A DNA stretch of 36,690 nt. Source: a virus. The notes beneath the pieces were generated by a model, which made no database searches, was not told the DNA's origin, and saw only the letters and a list, made by a program, of their open reading frames with translations. The position numbers and the translations under genes were made by a program. Where the stretch lies: positions 1-36,690 of IMG/VR virus record IMGVR_UViG_3300043570_004187, one strand, 5' to 3'. Below, piece by piece: positions 14,649-36,690 of this stretch; the first letter of the stretch is position 1, and the number at the start of each line of letters is the position of its first letter.

Positions 14649-15824
14649 TTACATAGTAAAGTCGACTTTCTTGGATTCTTTGTCTATTTTTACTATTTTT
14701 ACTTCAATTTCCTGTCCTACTTCAAATTCATCATTTTCATCTAAATGAGATTTGTGTAGAAGACCTACAATTTTAGGTTCGATTTCTACGAAGATTCCGT
14801 ATCGAACAACTCTTTTAACTTTCCCTGTTACAACTGAAGGAATTTTGAAACGATTTTCAATATCATCCCAAGCATTGATTTGTGGTGCAGGTAAAGATTG
14901 ACTTAAAACAATTTTATCATTGTCGATGATTTCTGAAACGTAGAAGTTAATTGAATCACCAGCTTTAATTCTACGATTCTCAAAGTCGTCCATTGAATTA
15001 CTAGAAATATCTTTCTTAGCAATCAGACCGGTTAAACATTCATTGAATTCCACAAAGACTCCATGTTTACTAACACCTGTTACAAAACCAGAGTATTCAA
15101 CTCCAAATTGTAAAGATTTAATACTTTGAGGGATAAGAGTTTTGAGGTAATCTCTATGAGAAACAACAATATAATCTTTCTCTTTCGAGTAATTGATTGG
15201 AACTACATAGATGTTTTTACCAATTAATGAATCAAAGTTAACTAGCTTATTCATACCACCAAGTGAACCTGGCATAAAACAACGGATTCCATCGACTTCG
15301 ACGAAGTAACCTCCGTGAATAAGTTCTTTAACTGTAGCAGCATAAGCAACTGGTTCTCCGATTGATGCCATAATTTCATCTTTCTTCTTAGATAAGATAT
15401 TCTTAGAATAAGAAGCTTGAATAGATAATGAATGTCTCGTTGGAACCTTCGAAACTCTTTCGATAAGAACTTCGATCGGGAATCCTTCTTGAATATATTT
15501 CAAGTAAGATGGATCCTCTTTAGAAAGATCTAACATAGCATCTTCTCTCCAATTAACATCGATAATAGCAAATTCGGCACCTACCGATAAAACTTTACCA
15601 TTAACAACTGAACCTTCTAACGGTTCTTTTAGATCTAACGTTTTACCATAATATTGCTCATAAAGATCTTGTGCATATGGTAAATGACAGTAAACTTTAG
15701 AGTTATCTCCAGGATGTTTTTTGATTGACTTGTTTTGTCTTAGTTTCGGTGAATCAGCCTCATAAGCAATCCAATCAAATCCAGGGATACCTTCAGTTTG
15801 AAATTCTTTTTTTAATCTTGACAT
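14649..15824 (-). CDS. Ribosomal protein S1-like protein with four S1 RNA-binding domains
   Basis: 391 residues. After a ~65-residue N-terminal extension come four OB-fold S1 repeats: about 70-136 (VNGKVLSVGAEFAIIDVN), 156-226 (ATVKELIHGGYFVEVDGIRC), 240-309 (YSGFVTGVSKHGVFVEFNEC) and 329-391 (VTGKVKRVVRYGIFVEIEPK). Repeats 3 and 4 have the classic G.V..V...G.FVE....GL...S motif. S1 proteins bind single-stranded A/U-rich mRNA and help 30S subunits capture leaders lacking strong Shine-Dalgarno sequences; bacterial S1 is usually longer, with four to six repeats. Here the gene is embedded between spike and baseplate genes. It may favour translation of the phage's A/T-rich leaders, or be packaged. 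Both are inferences; the domain call is strong. Confidence 0.9.
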   Translation of the reverse strand: MSRLKKEFQTEGIPGFDWIAYEADSPKLRQNKSIKKHPGDNSKVYCHLPYAQDLYEQYYGKTLDLKEPLEGSVVNGKVLSVGAEFAIIDVNWREDAMLDLSKEDPSYLKYIQEGFPIEVLIERVSKVPTRHSLSIQASYSKNILSKKKDEIMASIGEPVAYAATVKELIHGGYFVEVDGIRCFMPGSLGGMNKLVNFDSLIGKNIYVVPINYSKEKDYIVVSHRDYLKTLIPQSIKSLQFGVEYSGFVTGVSKHGVFVEFNECLTGLIAKKDISSNSMDDFENRRIKAGDSINFYVSEIIDNDKIVLSQSLPAPQINAWDDIENRFKIPSVVTGKVKRVVRYGIFVEIEPKIVGLLHKSHLDENDEFEVGQEIEVKIVKIDKESKKVDFTM

Positions 15825-20889: not shown

Positions 20890-23118
20890 TTAATAAATTC
20901 CTTGAGCTGAATTAGCCAGCAATTCATGAACGTTTTTATGATTGGGAAATCTATCTAATAACAAATTTACTGCTTCTTCTGCATCAGCTGATGAGACTTG
21001 TTGTCTTTTATCTTGAGCAGAAGTAGCTCTATATTTAGATCTTGTTCCTTTATTCTTTTTATTTCCTGGATATTTTTCAGCAGGACTTAAAGTTGTATAA
21101 GTTCTACCTCCTCTATGGAACATTGCCATCATATCCGAACGATCTCTAGGTCTAGCAGGTTTTAGAGTACAAGTAACAGTTAATTTCGTAGGGAAATCAT
21201 CAGCACCTAAAGCACCATGTAAATAATATTCGGATTTTTCTAAAATCAAGTTTCCAATAGAAACTATAGGATTTGCAGGATTACCGACCATAACATGCCA
21301 TTCACCAGTTTCTTCACCTGTAAGTAACGAGTTTACAGCTTGAGCTCCTGCTGCACCTCCACCTCCTTGAGCTCCATCTAATGCTCCACCAATGATATTA
21401 GACATTAAGTTACCTCCAATATTTTTAGCAGCATTACCAATTCCTTCAAGTGTAAGTCCTTCACCTCCAGTAAATTCTTTAATTCTCGTTCCTATATTAT
21501 CTGTTAGTGATTTGAAGTAACCTGTATAATCTCCAGCAAGTAATTTCGCCGGATCACCTAAAGGTCCAACCGTTTTACTAGCTGAGTTAGCTCCACCACC
21601 TCCACCAAAATGTCTAATATCACCTCCCCAGAATTCACCTCTATTAGCCGTCATAACAAAAACGTTAGAGAGTAAATCGATCATAGCTATTTTCGGGTTT
21701 ACTCCATCAATAGATCGAAGTTCATATTCGAATTTAAGAGTAAAAGCTTGTTCAAACAATAAACCTTTTTCTCTCATCATCATGGTTTTTATAACATCTA
21801 AAGGACCATAAACAACGTTTTTGTTAGCGTAAGGATCATTACCTGAACCTCCATTATTATTTGTTTTGTCAGTAAATGCACCTGGAGGAGATCCTGGTGG
21901 TTTTTGTGTGATCCAAGAAACAGCTTTAATTGCATTTCCTAAACCACCACCAATTGCAGCACCCTCATTCCCTTGTTTAGTTTTATTGTGAGAAACTAAT
22001 CCATTTGATATGTATGTGTGAGCATCTCCAATTTCTATAATCATAACTTCACCAAACCCAATTGCTTTAATAGAAGTTATCATTTGATTTCCAGAGATTC
22101 CTTTTATTAGATCTCCTATTTCTAGATCATGTGATCTCTTCCAATTACCAAAAGAATCCATGAATTTATGTGTAGTCGAAACAACTATATTCGATCCATC
22201 TCTAAATTCAATTGAAACTTTAGGTTGTGTTGTTCTCTCGATATAGGTAACTGGGAATCTTCCCCACTTTCCTGTGTATTCATGTAAAGTCCAAACAGTA
22301 TCACCAACTTTAAGTTTTCCTGCTTTTATAGAAAGTTTTTCATTTATCATGATCGGTGTTTCGGGATCAGGACATCCACCACCACCAGAAAGAGTTTGAA
22401 CTTCTGATTCTAATTCTTTCCATTTCATAGCTGATGAAAATTTAAGACCGACTGACTCCCATGTATTAGCTTCTCCGTCTACCCATGTAATTAATCTGGA
22501 AATATCTGGTAGGACTATTTTTTGCCAATCTAGAAGATCATCTGTAATAGGTTGAGTAAATCTTCTTAGAGTAACCATATAATTATTTGGAACGATTCCA
22601 TAATTCTTACACCAAAGAAAATCCTCCCATGCATATTCAACAGCATTAGTTCCTATTCTCGGATCCCCTGGACTTGCAGTCGACCAATTTATTAAATTTT
22701 TTGCAGTAGGATTATTTAGAACATTAGCTAATCCTTCCGAAGGTCCTTGAGACGAACCTAAAGAAACACCACCTCCTTCATTACCAACAGGAGCAGATGT
22801 ACCTAGATCAACTGGTCGGATCAAATCTCCAAGACGATTAGGTTTATCGATATAAGGTTCGGGATTAGGTCCCAAAGTTAACGAATTGTAATAAAAAAGA
22901 GAATATCTATTGAATATAGATTGAGTTGCTCTTCTAGGAGAAGGATTCTTCGTAGTAAGAGATCCATCTGCCATAATTCCAGTTACGCCTTTTGGTAGAG
23001 GAATATCGATCATACTATCCGGATTCTGATCATAGAAACTCTGTAAATATGATTCATCATTATTCGAAGAAAGATCGTAGTAAGCTTGCTCTCTACCTGT
23101 AAAACCTTGAACGGCCAT
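20890..23118 (-). CDS. Tail/baseplate structural protein interrupted by a Hint (intein-like) domain
   Basis: 742 residues. Residues 1-248 and 379-742 are virion-like. The N-part contains NYGIVPNNYMVTLRRFTQPI; the C-part has GEWHVMVGNPANPIVSIGNL and later LTVTCTLKPARPRDRSDMMA, a pattern I associate with myovirus tube/baseplate-junction proteins. Residues 249-378 are a separate 130-residue Hint domain. The flanking sequence is Gly-rich (SGGGG before it, GNEGAAIGGGLGN after), as in an exposed loop. If the Hint domain splices, the mature protein would be ~612 residues; if it cleaves, two fragments result. It is the first gene of the baseplate block after the small unknown genes. Structural role is inferred from neighbours. 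Confidence 0.85.
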   Translation of the reverse strand: MAVQGFTGREQAYYDLSSNNDESYLQSFYDQNPDSMIDIPLPKGVTGIMADGSLTTKNPSPRRATQSIFNRYSLFYYNSLTLGPNPEPYIDKPNRLGDLIRPVDLGTSAPVGNEGGGVSLGSSQGPSEGLANVLNNPTAKNLINWSTASPGDPRIGTNAVEYAWEDFLWCKNYGIVPNNYMVTLRRFTQPITDDLLDWQKIVLPDISRLITWVDGEANTWESVGLKFSSAMKWKELESEVQTLSGGGGCPDPETPIMINEKLSIKAGKLKVGDTVWTLHEYTGKWGRFPVTYIERTTQPKVSIEFRDGSNIVVSTTHKFMDSFGNWKRSHDLEIGDLIKGISGNQMITSIKAIGFGEVMIIEIGDAHTYISNGLVSHNKTKQGNEGAAIGGGLGNAIKAVSWITQKPPGSPPGAFTDKTNNNGGSGNDPYANKNVVYGPLDVIKTMMMREKGLLFEQAFTLKFEYELRSIDGVNPKIAMIDLLSNVFVMTANRGEFWGGDIRHFGGGGGANSASKTVGPLGDPAKLLAGDYTGYFKSLTDNIGTRIKEFTGGEGLTLEGIGNAAKNIGGNLMSNIIGGALDGAQGGGGAAGAQAVNSLLTGEETGEWHVMVGNPANPIVSIGNLILEKSEYYLHGALGADDFPTKLTVTCTLKPARPRDRSDMMAMFHRGGRTYTTLSPAEKYPGNKKNKGTRSKYRATSAQDKRQQVSSADAEEAVNLLLDRFPNHKNVHELLANSAQGIY
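21985..22374 (-). other. Hint / intein-like domain (BIL-type) inside the 742-residue structural protein
   Basis: Residues 249-378 of the host protein. It begins with Cys249 (CPDPETPIMINEKL), has KAGKLKVGDTVWT and a block-B-like STTHKF with His317, and ends DAHTYISNGLVSHN with His377-Asn378. These are the Hint landmarks for N-S acyl shift and Asn cyclisation. No homing endonuclease is inserted (130 residues). The next residue is Lys379, with Thr380 after it, so the Cys/Ser/Thr nucleophile required at +1 for canonical splicing is missing. This fits bacterial intein-like (A-type BIL-like) domains better than a standard intein; cleavage or non-canonical splicing is predicted. Confidence 0.9.
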
Positions 23119-25585: not shown

Positions 25586-26173
25586 TTACAACCTAACGAC
25601 AAAGCTAGAATCAGGGAAAGTTGTAATTTTATGTGTCTGTGCAAAAATTTCATTTACAGCTTCATAAACTTGAATTCCTGGATCGTATCTATAATCATGT
25701 CCAGAGATAAATCCTCCAGGCTTAACTTTCGGAATCCAAGCTAAAATATCTTTTTTAACATTCTCATAATCATGAGCAGCATCTATATAAACGAAATCGA
25801 TAGATGCATCATCGAATTGATTAGCAGCATCAACACTACTCCCTTTGATTTTTGTAACGTGATCATATTTAGATGCCATTTTATCGAATGACCATTCAGC
25901 AAATTCCACGATTTGTTTATCTGTTATTTCCCAATAAGGATCCCAAAGATCTACGCAATAAAGTTTCTTACAATGTAAAGCAAATAGCTCTGAACTAATT
26001 CCTGAAAATGATCCAATTTCAACAACCGTTGACTGATCATTAACATATTCTTCAATTAACATTTTAAGACCTTTGAGACTGTTTACTTTGAAGTTGTATG
26101 CGTCGTAATTTATATCAACATAAAACATTCTAGGAATCTGTAATAATTCCTCTATTTTTCTTTCTTTTTCCAT
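25586..26173 (-). CDS. Class I SAM-dependent methyltransferase (Methyltransf_24-like)
   Basis: 195 residues from the ATG at 26173, 13 bases after the end of the giant glycosyltransferase gene; a TTG further upstream would overlap that gene, so I reject it. SAM-binding motif I reads VVEIGSFSGISSELFALHCK; the motif-II acidic residue follows in LYCVDLWDP, and DFVYIDAAHDYENVKKD plus VKPGGFISGHDY are the later motifs of this family. Members methylate sugars and small molecules, often next to glycosyltransferases. Its core resembles the methyltransferase domain inside the neighbouring 1549-residue enzyme, so the two may be ancient duplicates. Probable job: methylating the glycan built by the neighbour (inference). 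Confidence 0.88.
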   Translation of the reverse strand: MEKERKIEELLQIPRMFYVDINYDAYNFKVNSLKGLKMLIEEYVNDQSTVVEIGSFSGISSELFALHCKKLYCVDLWDPYWEITDKQIVEFAEWSFDKMASKYDHVTKIKGSSVDAANQFDDASIDFVYIDAAHDYENVKKDILAWIPKVKPGGFISGHDYRYDPGIQVYEAVNEIFAQTHKITTFPDSSFVVRL

Positions 26174-26186
26174 GATTTTGTTTATT

Positions 26187-29100
26187 TTATAATTTGTGTA
26201 TTGGTACAATAATTTCATCTTCATTTTCATCAAATCTTAATTCATATTCACCGTCTGGATGTAAATGACTGATTCTATAATGTTCTCTTATATCGATGAG
26301 ATCGAATCCTAATTTATGAATTTCATGAGATTGGCTTATTTGTCCTAAATTTTCTTCATTTTCATATCCATCGAATTTATTTTTATTGCTAGGAAGACAA
26401 TTATTTTTTAGAAATAAAGTTTCTAAAGCTTTAGAAGTAATTACTCCAGTTGCATTACCTGCATGTTTTTGCCATCCAGTTTGTTCATCTCTAACAATTC
26501 CACATAAATATCCAGGATTTTCTGTTTTGTTTAGGATATCAATCATTATCTCGTCGAAATTTTCTTTTACATAAACATGATCATCTTCCATAAAGAAATA
26601 ATAATCAAATTCTGTTCTGTATTTTTCATAAACATCTGAGAAAGCTCCATAACTAAGTCCGATATTTTCTCGAACGATAATTTCAACTGTTGCTCCTTGT
26701 ATTTTAGAAGGAATTACATCCTTTGCTTTAATTATGTAATTGATTTCATCTAAAGTAGAATTTGTATTTATCGTAAAAACAATATGATCTAAATTATGCT
26801 TAAACTTAGTAAGATATTCAACTTGTTTCTTTATGAAGAATAGTCGATCTTCGTCATATTCCTTAAAATATAATCTACGATCGCCAAAATAAGTATGTGC
26901 TAATAAACAAGATTTTTTTGGTTTGTGTTGTATGAATCCAATTCCACCGAAATTGGAATTAGGCTCTATAAAATCATGTTTGTTTCCTTTAAGTTCACTC
27001 CAAAGTCTATCAACTCCACAATTAGCATTTCTATGATATTCAGTATCTTTTGTGTCGTGGAATCCTATCCAACCTCCAGGTTTAACGAATTCTTTATACA
27101 TTTCATAATCTTGTTTAACACCTTCATATGTATGATCTCCATCTATAAATAGAAAATCTAATTCAGTTCCATTGAGGCTTTCTTTAACTCTATCCTTCAT
27201 TGATTCTTCATGGGAACTTCCGTGAAACATTGTTACATCCGAACCCAAAGATCTAAGATAATTATCTCTTTCATTAACATCATAAGTATTAACTCCATAA
27301 GCTCCATGTGGCATATCAACAGAAATCCTCTTTCCATCTTTAGATAGCTTACTCCATATTGCAAAAGTTCCTCCTTGATCAGTTCCGATTTCCATAAAAT
27401 TCTTAACGTTTAGATTCTTAAAAAATTCAGCAGCTTCGAAAATCTCTTTATGATTTTGAACCATACCTAAATCGTAAGATTCTTGAACTATAACATCTAC
27501 ACTCTTTTTAGAAATTTTTCCATTTGAATAAAATTCTTCGATAGAATTTATAACATCACTCCCTTTTATAGATTTCGAACATTCAAATTGTCTAGGTGTT
27601 CCTTTTTGATCAGGACACCAATTCCAATCTCCGGCATCTAATCTATGTCGATTGAAACATCCATTACAAACACTTCCGTTGAATATACGAATAACATTTT
27701 CATCTGTTGCTTCTGTCATTGGTGTACTGAATCCAGAAATTATAGTAGTCGGAACATTTAATGCCCAAGATAACCAACTTAATCCACTACCAATACCGAT
27801 AAACATTTCAGAATGTTGAAGATAATTGATTGTACTATTAAGGCTTCTTTCTCCGTGAATTTTAGTAACACCTTTAGGGTAATGATTACCCATATAGCCG
27901 TCTTCTTCTAAACTTAACATTACGACTTTATAGCCCTTTCCTAAGAAATAATCAGTTACTTCTTGCCATCCGGTTGGATTGTTCCAATATTTCGATTGTG
28001 CAGTGGAATGCATACCAATACAAACATAAGGTTCTTTGATAGGAGGGATCGAAATAGGTTTAACAATACGAGGTCGTAAAGCTGTATGTTCGAGTCCTAG
28101 AATATCTGTTGTAGTTGCTTGCATAGGAATGGTTTTGAAATCTCTAGGATGGAGATGTCTATTAAAATCAGATCCATCATAGAACCAACCTATTAGATAT
28201 GTTGCATATGAATCATTGATTGATTGTCCAGGTTTAATGAATCTTAGATTTCGATAATTAGATTCAAAGAGTTCATTTTTGAAAGTACTCACATAAACTT
28301 TACAATCATGTTTCTTCTGAAATTCTTCGATATGAGCAAACCAAGCTATTGAATCACCTAATGATCTAGATTCCATAGAAATTTTAACTCTCTTACCTTT
28401 TAGATCCATTTTATACTCTTCAATCTCTCCAGATATTAGATCTTTTATTCGAATCAACCAATCAATGTAGTATTTTATTGAACATGAAGTCCAACAATTC
28501 ATTCCTATATTAGAAGAATATAAGATATTTCCATTCTCATTGTTGATAAAATCAACTTGAAAGTATCGAGTTCCGGAACCTAAGATTTCAACCCTAGGGC
28601 CGTTATTAAAATCGATATTTACTTTTTTCTTAGGAGATTCGAATCCTATTTCTTCCATCCAAACTCTACTATTTAGATTGCTATTTGCAATCTTTGTTGT
28701 CAAATCATATTTTCTTCGTTCGTTATAATCAGGTAAATTAACTGAGAATCCGATTTCTAACATAGATTTAGGAATACTTAAGAGTACCATCGGTTTTTGA
28801 CTAGAATCCGCAATAAATTCAGATTGTTGTCCTTCGTATTCAATAACAAATTTAAGAGGTTCTTCATTTGAACCTAGAGCACATAGAATATATTCTCCTG
28901 TTTGATTTTCTTTTGTGAGATAAAGATAACTAGGATTTTTAGAATTAGTTTTTATTAAAGGATATACAGAAAGAACATATGAATTTAAGCAATTTTTATC
29001 TGTAATTTCTTTTATATCACTTAAACATATCGATAATTCATTATCAGTAAAAGCTTTATGTAGAAAATCTTCAAGAATAACAATTCCCGGAAATGAGAAA

Positions 29101-30836
29101 TAATCTTGTTTTGAATTGAATCTTTCTAGACTTTTAAGAATAAGATCAGTTTTCCCAGAAAAGAATCCAGAATTAAGAGATCTTCCTCCCGGATTCCAAT
29201 TGTAAGAGAATATATCAAATTCTTCTAGTTTAGTAGAATGATTCTCTAAAACCGAAGGATCTTTTATAACATAATCATAATTAACAAAATGTACCTTTTC
29301 ATATTTATTAACACTAGCTATAGAGAGTCCATTCTTTATAAGTTTAAGAGCAGCATATCCATGATTAAAATCAAAAGAATAAGCAAGTTCAAATTCTCCA
29401 TATTTTATGTAATGAATCGGAACCGTATTAGATAAAGATGCATATTCATCAGAAAAAACAATTGGATTTTCTTTATCGAAAACAACGTAATCAGCTATAT
29501 CATGAATTCTCTTAGAAACAGGAATATGAGAAGAAACTATAACAGGATATCCTTGTCTCTTCAAAGATAAAATAGATAACCTAAGAAGTTCCTCTTTCTC
29601 ATCAGTATCAGCATGTGACATAACAACAGTTGCATCCTTTTTAATCGGATGTGTTATCTCATATTCGCTTACATTAAGTAACTCTAGATAAGCTCTATTG
29701 GCAACATTTTCCCATGAGAAACGAGTTCGGATTTCTTCTTTTTGAGATTCTGCAAGCCATTGATATGTTTCATATTTTTCGAAAACATCTCTCATTTTTC
29801 TTCCTAGGTCTTCGAAATTAGGTTCTGCATAAAGTCCTGGAGTATGTCCAGCGAATCCTAAATCAGCACCAATAGAAGCAGGTAATTCTCTTTCAATTGA
29901 AACGGGAATTCCTTTACCTTCAGCAAATTCTAGTTGAGCACCCCAATTCGAATAAATTGAAGGCGTTCCTGAAGCCATTGCTTCGATGAGTGGTATATTC
30001 CAACCTTCACTCCTTGCACAACTTAAAAAGACATCGCCTCTTTTTATATAAGTAACATAATCTTCTCTAGAAACGAAGTGTTTAACTTTAATTCTTTCAT
30101 CGTTTAGACCATAATGAGATAATCTTTCTTCTGTGGAATTCATTCCATCAATCGAAAAGGGATTATCCGCACTAAGAATTAGATCAACTGGTTCAGAAGA
30201 ATCAAAAGTGTTTAAGAAAGTTTTAAGTATTTCAGGAACTGATTTTCTATAATCCCATCGACCAAAGAAAACAAATTTGAATCTACCATCTTCTAATTCA
30301 GGAATCACTGAGGTCGTTTCATTATGACAAAATTCATCATTAACACCTTCATTGACAACAAATACTCGATGTGCGGGATAACCTTGTTCGATTATCATAC
30401 GTCTATGCCATTCAGTTACTACCCAAACAAAATCAAACTTAAGAAGTTGATTAAAGAATCCTTCTTCAAGTTCTGTACTTTCCCATACAGTAAAAGCAAT
30501 TTTAGTAGGTGCATTATAATCTTGATAGAAATACTTATGATGCATATCCATTAGAACGATATCAACATCGGCAACAAATCCTTCTGATTTATTCTTCCAA
30601 GGGAAATTAGGGAATGATCTACTTATAGGGAAATCCTCTTCACCGTTTGGTGTTCCTAGAGTTATTGTATCAATTAAAGAAAAATCTGTTTCATTTAAGT
30701 ATTCAGGATTAGAATCCCATGTGTAATTTCTTACTCTTAAATCTACATGTTTTGAAAATTCTCTAAAGAAAGATCTTGCATGAGCAGCAAATCCGGTTGT
30801 TCCTAGGTAGCATGTGTGTGCCCTAACTTTTATCAT
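26187..30836 (-). CDS. Five-domain glycosyltransferase/methyltransferase with TibC-type (BAHTCr) heptosyltransferase domain
   Basis: 1549 residues, cytoplasmic (no signal or membrane segment). Domains in order: (1) ~1-390 GT4, GT-B fold, with FFGRWDYRKSVPEIL and the E-x7-E pair Glu277/Glu285 in SEGWNIPLIEAMASGTP; (2) ~402-620 GT-A-like (SILSLKRQGYPVIVSSHIPV, FVNYDYVIKD); (3) ~745-1100 autotransporter O-heptosyltransferase type, with DLKGKRVKI, LGDSIAWFAHIEEFQKKHDC, LIGWFYD, DILGLE and four cysteines 1057, 1060, 1074, 1086 (VCNGCFN, WNWCPDQK, QFEC), matching the family's iron finger; (4) ~1145-1262 SAM methyltransferase (FMEIGTDQGG, FLFIDGDHTYEGVKQD); (5) ~1310-1545 GT-A with acidic FFMEDDHVYV. 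TibC-family enzymes add heptose to Ser/Thr of autotransporters. Here the substrate may be a virion fibre. Substrate and sugar are inference. Confidence 0.9.
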   Translation of the reverse strand: MIKVRAHTCYLGTTGFAAHARSFFREFSKHVDLRVRNYTWDSNPEYLNETDFSLIDTITLGTPNGEEDFPISRSFPNFPWKNKSEGFVADVDIVLMDMHHKYFYQDYNAPTKIAFTVWESTELEEGFFNQLLKFDFVWVVTEWHRRMIIEQGYPAHRVFVVNEGVNDEFCHNETTSVIPELEDGRFKFVFFGRWDYRKSVPEILKTFLNTFDSSEPVDLILSADNPFSIDGMNSTEERLSHYGLNDERIKVKHFVSREDYVTYIKRGDVFLSCARSEGWNIPLIEAMASGTPSIYSNWGAQLEFAEGKGIPVSIERELPASIGADLGFAGHTPGLYAEPNFEDLGRKMRDVFEKYETYQWLAESQKEEIRTRFSWENVANRAYLELLNVSEYEITHPIKKDATVVMSHADTDEKEELLRLSILSLKRQGYPVIVSSHIPVSKRIHDIADYVVFDKENPIVFSDEYASLSNTVPIHYIKYGEFELAYSFDFNHGYAALKLIKNGLSIASVNKYEKVHFVNYDYVIKDPSVLENHSTKLEEFDIFSYNWNPGGRSLNSGFFSGKTDLILKSLERFNSKQDYFSFPGIVILEDFLHKAFTDNELSICLSDIKEITDKNCLNSYVLSVYPLIKTNSKNPSYLYLTKENQTGEYILCALGSNEEPLKFVIEYEGQQSEFIADSSQKPMVLLSIPKSMLEIGFSVNLPDYNERRKYDLTTKIANSNLNSRVWMEEIGFESPKKKVNIDFNNGPRVEILGSGTRYFQVDFINNENGNILYSSNIGMNCWTSCSIKYYIDWLIRIKDLISGEIEEYKMDLKGKRVKISMESRSLGDSIAWFAHIEEFQKKHDCKVYVSTFKNELFESNYRNLRFIKPGQSINDSYATYLIGWFYDGSDFNRHLHPRDFKTIPMQATTTDILGLEHTALRPRIVKPISIPPIKEPYVCIGMHSTAQSKYWNNPTGWQEVTDYFLGKGYKVVMLSLEEDGYMGNHYPKGVTKIHGERSLNSTINYLQHSEMFIGIGSGLSWLSWALNVPTTIISGFSTPMTEATDENVIRIFNGSVCNGCFNRHRLDAGDWNWCPDQKGTPRQFECSKSIKGSDVINSIEEFYSNGKISKKSVDVIVQESYDLGMVQNHKEIFEAAEFFKNLNVKNFMEIGTDQGGTFAIWSKLSKDGKRISVDMPHGAYGVNTYDVNERDNYLRSLGSDVTMFHGSSHEESMKDRVKESLNGTELDFLFIDGDHTYEGVKQDYEMYKEFVKPGGWIGFHDTKDTEYHRNANCGVDRLWSELKGNKHDFIEPNSNFGGIGFIQHKPKKSCLLAHTYFGDRRLYFKEYDEDRLFFIKKQVEYLTKFKHNLDHIVFTINTNSTLDEINYIIKAKDVIPSKIQGATVEIIVRENIGLSYGAFSDVYEKYRTEFDYYFFMEDDHVYVKENFDEIMIDILNKTENPGYLCGIVRDEQTGWQKHAGNATGVITSKALETLFLKNNCLPSNKNKFDGYENEENLGQISQSHEIHKLGFDLIDIREHYRISHLHPDGEYELRFDENEDEIIVPIHKL

Positions 30837-30887: not shown

Positions 30888-32168
30888 CTAGATACTGTAT
30901 ATTTCCGTTCTTTTATATTCGAATGTATTATTTGAAGGGTCCCATTCAGTAAATTCTATTCTCCAATAACGATTTTCTTTAGGATCTCTCGCTATTAGCT
31001 TCATTTTCAATATATTCTCATATTTTTCACCAACTGTTTGTGCTAATCCTGTAAAATTTCTGTCTCCTAGATTATAGAGATTTGTCCATCCGTCAGAATT
31101 CCATCTAAGTCCTAATGGATAATTTTCTCCATTCTCAGAAATCCACATATTACCATATTCGTTAGGAGATCTAGGACTAGATTCTAATAAAGGATTGAAA
31201 AGTTCTCCCTCCTCCATTCTTAAAGGAATGGCCCCTATAGAATCATCATTAGCATCGCCGCCTAAATTATTGTATTTAACTTTTGATCCAAGATTAACAG
31301 TCCAATTTTTAACGTAAGGGATTCCTTCACCATCTCCTAAAGTTGTAGAGGGATATCTAGAAGTAAATTGATCAATTAAAGAAGAAATTCTCTTTAATGA
31401 CATCATATCACCTATAAGTTTAGAATTCTGAAGAAGTGTGATAGATGGATTAATCGTCCCTTCTTTTAATTCTAAAAGGCGTGTTATTATCATTTCGAGA
31501 GAAGAAGGATCACTAGAATTTTCATCTAAAGAAAGGTCTTTTACTTTCTCGTTTTGTACAATCCACTCATATTCTGCTTTTGCTTCGTCATATTGTTTTC
31601 TAATCGTATTGTATTTCGAAGAGATTTCATCAAAGGATATTTCCGATCGATTTTCAATAGGAACTAAATAATGTGAAAATTTCTCTGTGTAATTAAATTT
31701 ATCATATTGATCTAATTTCGTTCCTATCTGAAAGGGCTTCACTGAAAAAGTTTCGATAAAACTAGTGAATCTTTTAGATGTAGGAATCTTTATTGTTATA
31801 TTAAAAGAAAGTTGATAGCTTTTTTCAGTGGTAATTTCCCAATATTTTTTTATAAACGAATAATAATCTTCATTAGAAAGAATATTGGAAAAATCCAGAT
31901 AGTAGTAATAAAAATTTGAACCTTCTCCACTAGATCCAATATCCGTAATAGAACTTTCACTTTGAATTAATTTTAATGAAAATGTTTTTTCTAATTGATA
32001 CCAAACTATGGTTTTACTACTAATCTCGCCTTTTATACCACCATCCCTATCTGAAGTAAAATTCACAGAAACCGTTATTGTAGGATCTAGTCCTTGTAAC
32101 GTATCATATTCTATAAAGCTAGAGTCGTTATCATTTAAGAAATCGATTCTTATTCCATTTTTTTCCAT
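30888..32168 (-). CDS. Virion structural protein with central coiled coil, unknown
   Basis: 426 residues. N-terminal ~160 residues are beta-rich (PTITVSVNFTSDRDGGIKGE, SYQLSFNITIKIPT). Residues ~185-265 are helical (YNTIRKQYDEAKAEYEWIVQ, then MIITRLLELKEG), probably coiled coil. The C-terminal part is again beta with Trp/Asn-rich loops (NMWISENGENYPLGLRWNSD) and ends EWDPSNNTFEYKRTEIYSI. No signal peptide. No family recognised. Lying between the fibre-tip genes and the glycosyltransferase, it is probably a fibre or fibre-attachment protein, perhaps a trimer through its coil. Confidence 0.82.
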   Translation of the reverse strand: MEKNGIRIDFLNDNDSSFIEYDTLQGLDPTITVSVNFTSDRDGGIKGEISSKTIVWYQLEKTFSLKLIQSESSITDIGSSGEGSNFYYYYLDFSNILSNEDYYSFIKKYWEITTEKSYQLSFNITIKIPTSKRFTSFIETFSVKPFQIGTKLDQYDKFNYTEKFSHYLVPIENRSEISFDEISSKYNTIRKQYDEAKAEYEWIVQNEKVKDLSLDENSSDPSSLEMIITRLLELKEGTINPSITLLQNSKLIGDMMSLKRISSLIDQFTSRYPSTTLGDGEGIPYVKNWTVNLGSKVKYNNLGGDANDDSIGAIPLRMEEGELFNPLLESSPRSPNEYGNMWISENGENYPLGLRWNSDGWTNLYNLGDRNFTGLAQTVGEKYENILKMKLIARDPKENRYWRIEFTEWDPSNNTFEYKRTEIYSI

Positions 32169-32413: not shown

Positions 32414-32932
32414 TTAGTATTCCCATATTTTTAAGTAGAGGTGATTTAATCTATCCGCCGTACTAGCTAATTGTCCGGATGCAAATATCCACACATCGGC
32501 ATTCCAATTTATAGCAAGATTTGACGCTACGGAACTCCGCATTTCCGAAAAAAGCCCTGTGAGGGGATCGGATGCTTCAGTTCCGAGTTCTATTCCAGAT
32601 CCTCCCCCTGAAGCATTTTTTATATAGAGATGTCTTCCTCCCATATCTATATATAGGTTTCCGGAAGAAGTCGCTCTAACTAGAATTTGAATAGCTCCAG
32701 TCAATCCAGAACCAGTAGGATCATTAGGACTAGCCCAAAGTCTATAAGTAAAAGTTCCTGCGGATCCTATTTTTTCAAATAGAGCTTGTGCTATAAGAAG
32801 ATCCCCATTCGTATAAGTTCCTGCAGGAATTAAAACTTTTTGTAGGATTACGACACCTGATGTTCCTGATATACCTACAGATGTAGTGTTATAAAACGTA
32901 TTTGGACCGACGCCTGTTATTTTTGGATTCAT
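32414..32932 (-). CDS. Fibre-tip-like protein, third member of a tandem paralogue set
   Basis: 172 residues. Its ATG overlaps the previous gene's stop (ATGA). The pattern VLIPAGTYTNGDLLIAQALF, GTFTYRLW, a middle strand GRHLYIKN and the ending INWNADVWIFASGQLAST...LYLKIWEY align by eye with the two genes upstream. Gly/Ser/Thr-rich, beta-sandwich-like, no signal peptide; a GTSG-like element (GISGTSGVV) sits near the N-terminus. Probable small fibre head or capsule/receptor-contact protein. The paralogy is directly visible; the role is inferred from the adjacent collagen-like fibre. Confidence 0.82.
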   Translation of the reverse strand: MNPKITGVGPNTFYNTTSVGISGTSGVVILQKVLIPAGTYTNGDLLIAQALFEKIGSAGTFTYRLWASPNDPTGSGLTGAIQILVRATSSGNLYIDMGGRHLYIKNASGGGSGIELGTEASDPLTGLFSEMRSSVASNLAINWNADVWIFASGQLASTADRLNHLYLKIWEY

Positions 32933-33420
32933 ACTTCTAAGCTTATATTTATTAATTGCAAAGTATCTGTACCAGAGCCTCTAAATCCAGTTACAAAGAA
33001 AACACCTCCACCTACTAACCAATTTGTGAATGTAAAAGTTGCAACAGTAGCTCCTACAACATCACCTACGTCATTAGAAGTAGAAAAAGTCGATGCAAGA
33101 CCTCTTGCTGTTGTTGTATTCGTAAACACAAATCTTCGATAGATATTAGGTGAAAAATCTCCAACTCCAGCGGAGAAAGTTCCTAATTGAAGAGCACCTG
33201 TAATATTTGCTGTCGTATTAAAATAGAGTTTATATGTAAAAGGTGAAGATGTTGATGATTTTGTACATGAATTTCTTACCGTAATTATTGCTCCAGAAGA
33301 TAAAAAATCAGGAGGTAAAGTAACAGATCCTAAGATCGTCTCGGATGCACAGGCAAAAGTAGACCCTACTTGAGCATTAGCTGTTATCCGTAAGTTTTGA
33401 CCGTTAGCTTTTCTTATCAT
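32929..33420 (-). CDS. Fibre-tip-like protein, second member of the tandem set
   Basis: 163 residues from the ATG at 33420, whose ATGA overlaps the preceding stop. A longer reading from a TTG 36 bases earlier would overlap the previous gene by 40 bases and is rejected. The family pattern is VTLPPDFLSSGAIITVRNSC, PFTYKLYFNT, YRRFVFTN and a final FTNWLVGGGVFFVTGFRGSG ending LINISLEV. Same probable beta sandwich as its neighbours. No motif for catalysis. Fibre tip or head is the best inference. Confidence 0.82.
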   Translation of the reverse strand: MIRKANGQNLRITANAQVGSTFACASETILGSVTLPPDFLSSGAIITVRNSCTKSSTSSPFTYKLYFNTTANITGALQLGTFSAGVGDFSPNIYRRFVFTNTTTARGLASTFSTSNDVGDVVGATVATFTFTNWLVGGGVFFVTGFRGSGTDTLQLINISLEV

Positions 33421-33920
33421 GATCCTTGTATGAAATCTGTTATTATATAAGGGCAATATACAGTATCGGCAGAATTAGTACATTGAGAAGTGATTATTAT
33501 ATATTGATCATTTGCCCAATTGATTGTGGTGATATTTTGCCAAGAAATTGTAGGTCCCGCATGATCCCAGGCATTCGATGTAGTTACACTAGGAGCATAA
33601 GTTGAATTAGTTAGATTATTTATACTCAATCTCCTCATTATAGGAATTAATGTTCCTGTAGAATTTGTGGCAGTGTAAGTTGCTACTAATTGTTGAGATG
33701 TATTCACTGCAGTTCCTATCCGGATTCTTATCGTTGCAGTTCCTACAGTTCCTACTTTCCTTAATCTTGAATCTATTCCAAGTAGATCATATTGTTTTAA
33801 GCTTCCTCCTGGAATAAGAAGTGAATTAACTACTCTTTCAGTAGTAACTCCCGTATATCCAGTAGTATCTCCTACAGTTCTAGGTGGATTATATTCTATT
33901 CCTTTTACTTTTGAAATCAT
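33417..33920 (-). CDS. Fibre-tip-like protein, first member of the tandem set
   Basis: 167 residues, starting 9 bases after the stop of the collagen-like fibre. Its leader has AGGAAGAG directly before the ATG, unlike most genes here. Pattern: SLLIPGGSLKQYDLLGIDSR, GTATIRIRIG, MRRLSINN, INWANDQYIIITSQCTNSAD and final YIITDF. Also a short G-Y-T-G element near residue 21. The three genes in a row suggest duplication and divergence of one small receptor-contact or fibre-head module. Named function not recognised. Confidence 0.82.
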   Translation of the reverse strand: MISKVKGIEYNPPRTVGDTTGYTGVTTERVVNSLLIPGGSLKQYDLLGIDSRLRKVGTVGTATIRIRIGTAVNTSQQLVATYTATNSTGTLIPIMRRLSINNLTNSTYAPSVTTSNAWDHAGPTISWQNITTINWANDQYIIITSQCTNSADTVYCPYIITDFIQGS

Positions 33921-33929
33921 CTCTTCCTA

Positions 33930-36690
33930 TTAAATTTCTACCCAATCATTTGAAGGATTGAAGTAAATTATATCGTTTGTGGCACTTATTTGATATCCTA
34001 CAACTCTTACAATATCTGAAGCTCCTGTAGGTGCAGTACTTGTAACGTTACCTGTAGTTGCAGCAGAGAGATAAAGAATTTGTCCATCAGTAGCAGTGAA
34101 TAATGTAGTGTTTCTTACATATCCTCTTACAAGCATACCATCGGAAACGGCGGTTCCTAAAGCCACAGCTAACATTCCAGTAGCGGAAGAAGCTGCATTA
34201 GCATCTGTTAGAGTCCATACGAGACCAGTACTTAGGTAGTAAACTTTACCTTGAGTAAGTGAACCCGAAGAAGTTCCAAAAGTTACCTCATCTCCATAAC
34301 CAACACCACTAGATATCAAAGGTGAATTAGGATTATGAACGGTTTGGAAAGATCCTCTAACATCTAATTTCGTTGTAGGAGTAGATGTTCCTACACCAAT
34401 AGCATCCGCTGATACATCGGCAACGAATAAGCTAGCATCCGTATCACCTAAAATCTGAACGTCTGAAGTAGCATCCTGTCCAGTATTAAATCTAGTACGT
34501 CCGGCAATTATCCTTAATGCGTCATTGACCGAATTTGCTCCACTAACAGAAATTTCGATTCCGTAGTATTCTCTACCAGTCCCAGATAAAGTAATCTTAC
34601 TTCCATATTTGTATGTTAAAGAAGTATTTCCATTATCAGTTCCTATTATCTCTTGTCCATAAATTGTTTGAGCAGCACCTGGACTAGACGCTGGTGAACT
34701 AATTCGAATTTTTTGACCCCAGTTATTCCAACCTGATGTATTAGTTACTCGAATATCAACTCCCGTATTTGTAGATGAAGCACCAACTACCGATATATTT
34801 TGTCCATAACTATCTCTAGATAATTCCGATACATATATAGAAGATCCAAATTTATATGTGTATACAGCTTCACCAACTCCATCAATTGTTATATGTTGAC
34901 CCCATATATTAACTGTAGTATAAGGGGAAGGATCAGCGATTGAATTTGTGATTTTTGATCCATAATTAGATATTCCTATAGAACCGGTTAGTAATATTTT
35001 GTCTCCATAATTCTCACTACTACCATTAGCGATTAATAATTCAGTTCCTATACTAATACTCGAAACTCCATTAATAGCACCGTAGAGGATGCTGTTTGTT
35101 GAAGGTGATCCTGTAAGAGATCCGTCGATATAACCGTAGAATGCAGTATTAGCAGCTTTATCCATAGATGTCGAATTACCTATATTTGCTTCATATCCTG
35201 TAGCTACCGTTGAGTTTCCATCTATTTGGAAACTCGACCCATATCCAGCACCAATTCCTCCGACTACGTTACCGTAGATTCCGTAAGATTGGACTGAATT
35301 GGCACCTGCTATATCAATATTATGTGCAATGGCTGTATAATCTTGAGATCCTCCAGTTGAATCTATAGCTATATCGGTTCCTTTTTGTGTTGTTCCTGTT
35401 CCTACTGATGTATTTCTTACATATAAACCGATATCGCTACCTGTACTAGATCCTAAATTTGATCTATAACCTACATTGGAATTTGTACCTCTAATTACAG
35501 TAGTTTGAATTCCCATTCGGTCTAAAGTAGTTGAATCATCACCTTCATTAAAGATATCAATAGAAGAATATGGTAAACCTGAACCTAAAATAGATGTTGT
35601 TTCTATATATAGAGATCTATCAGTTGCTCCTATAGCATCTATTATTTCACCAACTCCGGTAAGACCCATAAGTTGAGCAGGTCCATCGAATGTGAAATTT
35701 GATTCAGCAACTATTCCACCAGCACCATTTGATGTTAAGACCTCATTATTAGCTCCTGGTACTAATGGAGTTGTTCCACTTGTTCCATTTGTTCCACTTG
35801 TTCCTGAAGTACCGGAATTACCACTAGAACCACTCGTTCCACTCGTTCCTGTATTACCAGAAGAGCCACTTGTTCCTGATGTTCCTCTTGTTCCTGAAGT
35901 ACCACTAGTTCCTGAACTTCCGCTACTTCCTGAACTTCCGCTACTTCCTGATGTACCACTAGTTCCTGAATTACCAGAAGATCCAGAGGTTCCACTTGTT
36001 CCTGAATTACCAGAAGATCCACTAGTTCCAGATGTTCCTCTTGTTCCTGAGGTACCACTAGTTCCTGAATTACCAGAAGATCCACTAGTTCCTGAAGTAC
36101 CACTGGTCCCTGAAGTTCCAGAGGTTCCACTTGTTCCTGAATTACCAGAAGATCCACTTGTTCCTGAAGTACCACTAGTTCCTGAATTACCAGAGGTTCC
36201 ACTTGTTCCAGATGAACCTGAACTACCACTTGTTCCTGAAGTTCCACGAGTTCCTGATGTACCTGATGTACCACTAGATCCACTTGAACCTGAAGTTCCG
36301 CTTGTTCCGGATGAGCCTGAACTACCACTAGAACCACTCGTTCCACTAGTTCCGGATGAACCTGAACTACCACTTGTCCCACTAGTTCCACTAGATCCGG
36401 AAGAACCACTTGTACCCGAAGTTCCACGAGTTCCTGATGTACCACTCGTTCCTGAATTACCGGAAGATCCTGATGTACCACTCGTTCCTGATGAACCACT
36501 TGATCCCGAAGAACCACTTGTTCCGCTAGTCCCTGAATTACCTGAACTACCACTTGTTCCTGAAGTTCCTGAAGCACCTACAGCACCAGAAGTTCCACTT
36601 GTTCCGGATGAGCCTGAACTACCACTTGTTCCTGAAGTTCCACTAGATCCACTAGTTCCACTTGTTCCTGAATTACCTGAACTACCACTT
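33930..36690 (-). CDS. Long tail fibre: collagen-like Gly-X-X tract, YG-repeat shaft, C-terminal head (N-terminus beyond window)
   Basis: Open from the right edge, at least 920 residues; the 5' end is outside. The frame passes through the internal Met at 35669 without a stop, so that Met is not the gene start. Order: ~102 Gly-X-X triplets; linker TTPLVPGANNEVLTSNGAGG; a shaft with about ten [Y/W/F]G-x2-[I/L] units (NYGDKILLTG, SYGQNISVVG, YKYGSKITLSG); then GVGTSTPTTKLDVRG, the usual phage-fibre segment; and a terminal head (GKVYYLSTGLVWTLTDANAA, GMLVRGYVRN). The fibre would be trimeric and bind host surface. It leads the tandem tip genes and the glycosylation locus, which suggests a common virion-surface module. 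Confidence 0.88.
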   Translation of the reverse strand, partial: SGSSGNSGTSGTSGSSGTSGTSGSSGSSGTSGTSGAVGASGTSGTSGSSGNSGTSGTSGSSGSSGSSGTSGTSGSSGNSGTSGTSGTRGTSGTSGSSGSSGTSGTSGSSGSSGTSGTSGSSGSSGSSGTSGTSGSSGSSGTSGTSGTRGTSGTSGSSGSSGTSGTSGNSGTSGTSGTSGSSGNSGTSGTSGTSGTSGTSGTSGSSGNSGTSGTSGTRGTSGTSGSSGNSGTSGTSGSSGNSGTSGTSGSSGSSGSSGSSGTSGTSGTRGTSGTSGSSGNTGTSGTSGSSGNSGTSGTSGTNGTSGTTPLVPGANNEVLTSNGAGGIVAESNFTFDGPAQLMGLTGVGEIIDAIGATDRSLYIETTSILGSGLPYSSIDIFNEGDDSTTLDRMGIQTTVIRGTNSNVGYRSNLGSSTGSDIGLYVRNTSVGTGTTQKGTDIAIDSTGGSQDYTAIAHNIDIAGANSVQSYGIYGNVVGGIGAGYGSSFQIDGNSTVATGYEANIGNSTSMDKAANTAFYGYIDGSLTGSPSTNSILYGAINGVSSISIGTELLIANGSSENYGDKILLTGSIGISNYGSKITNSIADPSPYTTVNIWGQHITIDGVGEAVYTYKFGSSIYVSELSRDSYGQNISVVGASSTNTGVDIRVTNTSGWNNWGQKIRISSPASSPGAAQTIYGQEIIGTDNGNTSLTYKYGSKITLSGTGREYYGIEISVSGANSVNDALRIIAGRTRFNTGQDATSDVQILGDTDASLFVADVSADAIGVGTSTPTTKLDVRGSFQTVHNPNSPLISSGVGYGDEVTFGTSSGSLTQGKVYYLSTGLVWTLTDANAASSATGMLAVALGTAVSDGMLVRGYVRNTTLFTATDGQILYLSAATTGNVTSTAPTGASDIVRVVGYQISATNDIIYFNPSNDWVEI
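35769..36690 (-). repeat. Collagen-like Gly-X-X tract encoded by 9-base-type repeats
   Basis: About 922 bases of near-tandem 9-base units (Gly-Thr-Ser, Gly-Ser-Ser, Gly-Asn-Ser and similar), continuing past the right edge. X positions are almost only Thr, Ser and Asn, with a few Arg (GTRG) and one GAVGAS block. I see no Pro in any triplet. A different frame of the same DNA is also open (35762-36577) and gives a Val/Gln/Glu-rich nonsense protein. The frame that joins to the shaft without a stop is the real one. Such tracts are prone to length change by slippage. Confidence 0.93.

Follow-up and report, generated by a model that had tools for sequence, protein, structure and literature searches.

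BAHTs, the O-heptosyltransferases of TibC/Aah type (TIGR04414; crystal structures 4rap and 4rb4), are already known, as are phage glycosyltransferases and the glycosylation of mycobacteriophage virions. The phage domain considered here shares with TibC and Aah the fold, with its beta-barrel plus GT-B layout, the catalytic Asp, the donor Thr and Lys, the Trp and the four cysteines of the iron finger. It differs in belonging to a separate clade, in the loss of Arg286, in a shorter thumb, in being phage-borne and in its fusion to four other domains. With WaaC and WaaF (GT9) it has in common the GT-B heptosyltransferase core, but those enzymes have neither iron finger nor N-terminal beta-barrel, their substrate is LPS, and GT9 controls were without (GTS)n tracts. 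The mycobacteriophage virion glycosyltransferases (Freeman et al. 2023, cited in PMC12619734) are likewise phage-encoded and involved in virion-protein glycosylation, though the glycans are on capsid and tail tube, unlike the fibre proposed below, and to our knowledge none of those enzymes has a TibC domain. Bacillus BclA is a collagen-like protein with Thr-rich Gly-X-Y (Gly-X-Thr) repeats whose O-glycans include a methylated sugar; it is, however, a bacterial spore protein and other enzymes are responsible. Phages L005, L017 and Microcystis phage Mel-JY01 have GT4, GT-A-like and TibC-type domains in one locus, but there the genes are separate or only partly fused, and the C-terminal GT-A fusion is absent. 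Has the combination been described before? The literature searched yielded no paper on TibC/BAHT-type domains or O-heptosyltransferases in phages, none on fusion of a BAHT with other glycosyltransferases and a methyltransferase, and none tying a BAHT branch or heptosyltransferase to collagen-like repeats or substrates, though for each of these, papers beyond the scope of the search are not excluded.

The window, i.e., the whole stretch of DNA analysed, is an entire linear IMG/VR virus record of 36,690 nt and is probably a fragment. The phage is of freshwater type, and nearly all the large ORFs are on the minus strand (Table 1). The 1549-residue ORF is real and has an ATG start (protein P0001). 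Virion genes in the window comprise one for a Phage_base_V protein, the Collagen fibre gene and one with a weak gp25-like baseplate match, and in other phages the neighbours of TibC genes match PHROG tail fibre, collagen-like minor tail and virion structural families; the virion/tail-gene context of the enzyme is shown by computation. The fibre, with about 97–102 Gly-X-Y triplets, is of (GTSGSS)n type. Ser and Thr make up 56% of its first 345 residues and 36% of the entire protein, versus 10–25% in every other ORF counted. The products of the three small genes are possibly fibre-tip or other virion proteins, a function that is inferred only. A plus strand ORF at 35692–36690 is not a gene candidate, being an antisense shadow of the collagen repeats. 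Elsewhere on the minus strand, positions 14649–15824 encode a ribosomal-protein-S1-like protein (PF00575, 107 bits) within the tail gene block, and the product of 2–3505 matches PHROG 29329, of unknown function, at 532 bits. A structural-looking protein (20890–23118) has a Hint/mini-intein-like insert (GGGCPDPETPI...VSHN, then Lys) with weak PT-HINT/Intein_splicing matches only; because the +1 residue is Lys, a resemblance to a BIL-like domain rather than to a splicing intein is suggested.

Table 1. Positions in the window of the enzyme gene, its parts and its neighbours
Feature	Position	Strand	Basis
Five-domain glycosylation protein, 1549 aa	26187..30836	-	ORF list, Pfam, NCBIfam, PDB sequence matches
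Domain A, GT4 (GT-B), residues 1-393	29658..30836	-	Pfam, PHROG, ExxxxxxxE at 277-285
Domain B, residues 394-735: GT-A-like (394-620), then beta-rich linker	28632..29657	-	AF2 model
Domain C, TibC-type (BAHT) O-glycosyltransferase, residues 736-1110	27507..28631	-	NCBIfam, PDB, AF2
Iron-finger cysteines C1057, C1060, C1074, C1086	27579..27668	-	Kept in 72/72 viral and 17/17 genome loci
Domain D, class I SAM methyltransferase, residues 1111-1304, EIGTDQG at 1149	26925..27506	-	Pfam
Domain E, GT-A-like, residues 1305-1549	26190..26924	-	AF2 model
Second Methyltransf_24 gene, free-standing; overlaps 3' end of the 1549-aa gene	25586..26233	-	Pfam
426-aa gene, function unknown, directly upstream of the enzyme gene	30888..32168	-	ORF list, Pfam scan
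Three small genes (172, 175 and 167 aa; 19-25% Ser+Thr) between fibre and enzyme	32414..33920	-	ORF list
Collagen-like fibre gene, 5' end beyond the window	33930..36689	-	Pfam Collagen, 146 bits

Along the chain the order is GT4, GT-A, TibC-type, methyltransferase and GT-A (A-B-C-D-E). Domain A meets the Pfam threshold for Glycos_transf_1 (PF00534; E 1.1e-10, 41.8 bits, gathering score 26.4) and matches the glycosyltransferase family PHROG 2170 (E 3.7e-29), and domain D does the same for Methyltransf_24 (PF13578; residues 1149–1262, 1e-15, 58.9 bits, gathering score 26.3). For domain B the GT-A fold of residues 394–620 is a prediction, from an AF2 model spanning domains B and C (residues 394–1110, pLDDT 89), with Z about 15 to several GT-A enzymes and the GT-A family unresolved. 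The model of domain E is of moderate confidence only, having been made from a two-sequence input (mean pLDDT 58, about 77 over the first 120 residues), and resembles GT-A/nucleotidyltransferase folds with Z about 12. An EDD at residues 1417–1419 is kept in the sole homologue found, the 38% identical product of a separate gene in another TibC phage (L257); the viral-contig search gave no close relatives of this domain, and the homologue surfaced only on reading G013.

Is the central domain really of TibC type, and not merely one more GT9 enzyme? Residues 736–1101 score 311.1 bits against TIGR04414, for which the NCBI equivalog cut-off is 200, and match the TibC crystal sequences at 1e-61, a signal far beyond chance; Pfam Glyco_transf_9 is over its cut-off, and TibC_1st, at 21 bits, is under its cut-off of 27. 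In contrast, heptsyl_trn_I gives 22.7 bits with a cut-off of 185, so that the domain does not qualify as a WaaC/WaaF enzyme. The model superposes on TibC with Z 40.4 and rmsd 2.5 over 364 residues, the N-terminal beta-barrel being kept, as against Z about 19 for the WaaC/WaaF structures. Residues of functional importance in TibC were taken from the structure paper (PMC4358343) and transferred to the phage protein through the alignment of domain C with the crystal sequence. D110, T226, K230 and W305 correspond to Asp828, Thr945, Lys949 and Trp1021, and the four phage cysteines align with the iron-finger cysteines C339, C342, C358 and C370, where the spacing is x2, x15, x11; that alignment is shown, while iron binding is inferred. 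The positions of D110, K230, W305 and all four cysteines are invariant over 72 non-redundant viral loci and 17 loci from genome collections. The domain identities, the TibC fold, the conservation of catalytic and iron-finger residues and the clade membership are accordingly shown by computation. The preliminary description, made from the sequence alone, fares well here: its five domains in one 1549-residue ORF held (the strand being minus), as did exactly its C-x2-C-x13-C-x11-C, and the motifs LGDSIAWFAHIEEF, LIGWFYD and DILGLE are all present. Its TibC/BAHT-type assignment of the central domain survived the profile search it had itself named as a possible refuter, and the fold check on the cysteine region, an alignment that spans the iron finger (without sulphur–sulphur distances), also favours TibC. 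Its placing of the gene in a virion block is supported by the Pfam and PHROG matches in the window and by the neighbours in other phages.

One departure from TibC deserves separate consideration. Arg286 of TibC contacts adenine, a matter of ADP-sugar selectivity, and is reported to be highly conserved in the family (PMC4358343). Its position is occupied by Thr1002 in the phage protein; in phages it is mostly Val, and Arg is present in only 6 of the 72 viral loci. The thumb beta-hairpin is three residues shorter than that of TibC, with Tyr-Met at its tip (the TibC dodecamer has two hydrophobic tip residues). These two changes could be taken to mean that the domain is inactive, or that it merely provides the other domains with a scaffold or a module for peptide binding. 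That is very unlikely, as the counterparts of D110, T226, K230 and W305 are all kept and are nearly invariant over the 72 phage loci. Loss of R286 as evidence against ADP-heptose was also dropped: phages with HldE-like genes directly beside TibC have lost it too, having Val there, so that the loss leaves the donor undecided. Because R286 is replaced, domain C is best filed as a homologous but divergent TibC-type subfamily, and not as a classical BAHT or a proven ADP-heptose enzyme.

Among uncultivated phages TibC domains are common, and the rare part is the fusion. Relatives turned up on at least 590 IMG/VR stretches in a profile-guided scan, but annotated phage records with the domain number just 4 of 50,697, these being Microcystis phage Mel-JY01 and three huge-phage records. 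In a freshwater-type lineage defined by its terminase, TibC was present in all 23 loci that had at least 6 kb upstream. Across 128 loci whose architectures were assigned by sequence search, domain C stands alone in 79, with the other architectures being B-C (34), A-B-C (6), A-B-C-D (6) and A-C (2). Some contigs are counted twice in that set, and since L001 and L050 are one contig, the A-B-C-D fusion is known from five distinct other contigs; domain E is fused in the window chain only. The domains are also found encoded separately in other phages, which argues for one shared pathway. In the tree, a lower-scoring bacterial group joins TibC in one clade (100/100), and a second clade unites the phages, the window sequence among them, with both bacterial groups that are linked to tracts of the kind described below; the phage-type domain clade is thereby shown to be distinct from classical TibC and the autotransporter-linked BAHTs. 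Members from genome collections include L033 and L034, which look like phage contigs. The former (CAIWBA010000291.1) is a 254-kb contig in a Bacteroidetes MAG, apparently a binned phage, and has the phage-type B-C architecture with collagen-like tracts at both contig ends. Two neighbouring families may be recorded in passing. A 38-member family (fam3; e.g., L070:7575-10268) of large variable-length proteins, about 640–1480 aa with an N-terminal nucleotidyltransferase-like domain, has a conserved place between TibC and terminase, and in a group of gammaproteobacterial loci a DUF6502 gene of unknown function (L044:5087-5926, L046, L047) is a conserved neighbour immediately upstream of TibC.

What, then, is the acceptor? 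The stronger evidence, as weighed here, comes from bacterial loci and not from phage loci. In 12 of the 17 genome loci, a tract of at least six G-[STAN]-[STAN] triplets lies no more than 1.2 kb from the TibC gene. In five of six bacterial genomes of 2.3–5.5 Mb (G039, G045, G047, G048 and G050) all pattern matches are beside TibC, and in the sixth (G049) 25 of 26 are. Bacterial clade members have secreted (Gly-Thr/Ser/Ala-Ser)n proteins for neighbours, and frequently the genome has no tracts of this kind elsewhere. For a Methylobacter-family sample, which overlaps the 17 genome loci, a tract of at least four triplets was within 1.5 kb in 7 of 8 phage-like members and of at least six in 5 of 8, whereas none of the 9 lower-scoring members and none of the 28 GT9 control loci had one. 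L376 is a phage-like member that lacks a tract. Four of the six lower-scoring loci that were read further out adjoin genes for AIDA-type strand-loop-strand proteins of 900–2900 aa; BAHTs are known to have partners of this kind, and the finding supports taking the neighbour as substrate. What is new, and shown, is the separation of the phage-domain clade from classical TibC, with bacterial members of the former beside (Gly-Thr/Ser/Ala-Ser)n proteins and the classical ones mostly beside AIDA-type adhesins. As a further difference from TibC and Aah, an NCBIfam scan of eight window proteins found no AIDA/autotransporter-type repeats, the record being a fragment. That the fibre is O-glycosylated and methylated is inferred, since the clade pairs with (GTS)n proteins and the window holds a (GTSGSS)n fibre.

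Phage loci are less telling. Strict tandem Gly-Ser/Thr tracts are in 25 of 40 TibC phage records (none with a reversed-pattern control) and 15 lack them, and conversely 104 of 120 stretches with GTSG repeats have no TibC domain within the DNA fetched. Microcystis phage Mel-JY01, the sole cultured phage with the domain that was found, gave no strict (GTS)5 tract match. A corrected permutation test shows fibre adjacency within phages to be statistically weak and barely above chance (10 versus 7.9 expected, p 0.22; mean distance p 0.048). A first version (p 0.02 and 0.0001) was discarded as biased, TibC always being at the locus centre. A BLAST family of fibre-like ORFs (fam1, 53 loci) was not used as evidence either, inflated as it was by low-complexity matches, and strict tract counts were used in its place. 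This weak proximity, with the many TibC phages devoid of strict (GTS)n tracts, is one point in favour of an alternative, namely that the acceptor is some other virion protein, whether one of the small Ser/Thr-containing proteins, the baseplate or the tail. The small genes do sit between enzyme and fibre, and it is capsid and tail tube that are glycosylated in mycobacteriophages (Freeman 2023, cited in PMC12619734). Nevertheless, bacterial clade members pair specifically with (GTS)n proteins, and we consider that alternative unlikely.

A heptose donor is likely for part of the family but is not shown for the window phage, the 36.7-kb fragment having no ADP-heptose genes. Among 89 non-redundant loci, HldE-II-like genes were found in 15, about 3 bp past the TibC gene, and HldE-I-like ones in 14; their best NCBIfam matches are HldE domains II and I, both under the NCBI cut-offs. 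The HldE-kinase-like gene of a 735-kb phage (LR756501.1, W02) has 306 bits where the cut-off is 345. No GmhB was found among 40 phage records. SIS matches in G009 and G019 were rejected as GmhA, as they look like KdsD; one in a 636-kb phage is possibly GmhA-like. G009, the closest large relative, carries genes read by eye as Gmd, GDP-fucose synthase, KdsD and KdsA. Two further observations concern these phages: in LR756501.1 the Gly-Ser/Thr tract pattern is matched 1085 times on the reverse strand, and at G009:C1:40000-59999 (L132) a large glycan cluster lies directly before the tail genes, with methyltransferases and, again by eye, a fucosyltransferase besides GDP-fucose synthase, Gmd, KdsD and KdsA.

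The KdsD/KdsA- and Gmd-like genes of G009 are relevant to the chief rival explanation, that during infection the enzyme alters the surface of the host (LPS, O-chain or capsule) and so blocks superinfection. There is precedent for such a reading: glycosyltransferases and rfaE in the host-recognition clusters of pelagimyophages were taken to modify the O-chain of the host (PMC7029224), and the heptosyltransferase gene of a huge phage was assigned to LPS (PMC10747093). However, the domain is of BAHT and not WaaC/WaaF type (Z 40 versus 19, with iron finger and N-terminal beta-barrel kept), the BAHTs that have been characterised modify protein Ser/Thr (PMC4358343), the gene is in a tail block and its clade pairs with bacterial (GTS)n proteins; host-surface remodelling is in our judgement improbable. 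Hyperglycosylation of phage DNA bases against restriction is a role commonly suggested for phage glycosyltransferases, but the scan of window proteins brought up no recognisable gene for DNA modification, BAHTs act on proteins and the context is that of tail genes, making it very unlikely here.

The reading we lean towards, by a modest margin and in the absence of biochemistry, is that of a single-chain enzyme that adds methylated sugars to the collagen-like fibre of the phage itself. Modification would take place in the cytoplasm late in infection, ahead of assembly. The TibC-type domain would act first, attaching to Ser/Thr of the Gly-Thr/Ser-Ser repeats a sugar from a nucleotide donor, with heptose or something related as the most likely candidate; the GT4 and GT-A domains would then extend it, and the methyltransferase would be last, capping or decorating the glycan. 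The benefit to the phage may be fibre protection, stiffness or altered surface recognition. The acceptor, deduced from the genome associations of clade members in bacteria and phages, is an inference, and so are donor, order of action and purpose. The order corresponds to the 'initiate-extend-methylate' of the preliminary description, which is reasonable as an inference though heptose as donor is not shown. Two further points amend that description: the TibC domain is widespread and only the fusion is rare, and the clade is separate from the autotransporter-linked BAHTs, its bacterial partners being collagen-like (G-T/S-S)n proteins and not AIDA-type repeats. A bolder reading is that a phage-type BAHT branch is dedicated to O-glycosylating Gly-Thr/Ser-Ser collagen-like repeats, that many uncultivated phages sugar-coat their fibres, some making their own ADP-heptose, and that the window has a whole methylated-glycan pathway in one polypeptide; taken jointly, these propositions could as readily fail as hold.

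Aquatic phages frequently have collagen-like (GTSGSS)n fibres. Were these fibres indeed O-glycosylated by this BAHT branch, a chemistry of bacterial surface glycosylation would become one of phage virions also, and the current assignment of some phage 'heptosyltransferase' and 'rfaE' genes to host LPS would have to be revised. A single enzyme and a single synthetic peptide would then suffice for a direct test of what modifies the (GTSGSS)n repeats, and a chain that unites GT4, GT-A, BAHT-type and methyltransferase domains would offer a compact means of producing defined O-glycoproteins.
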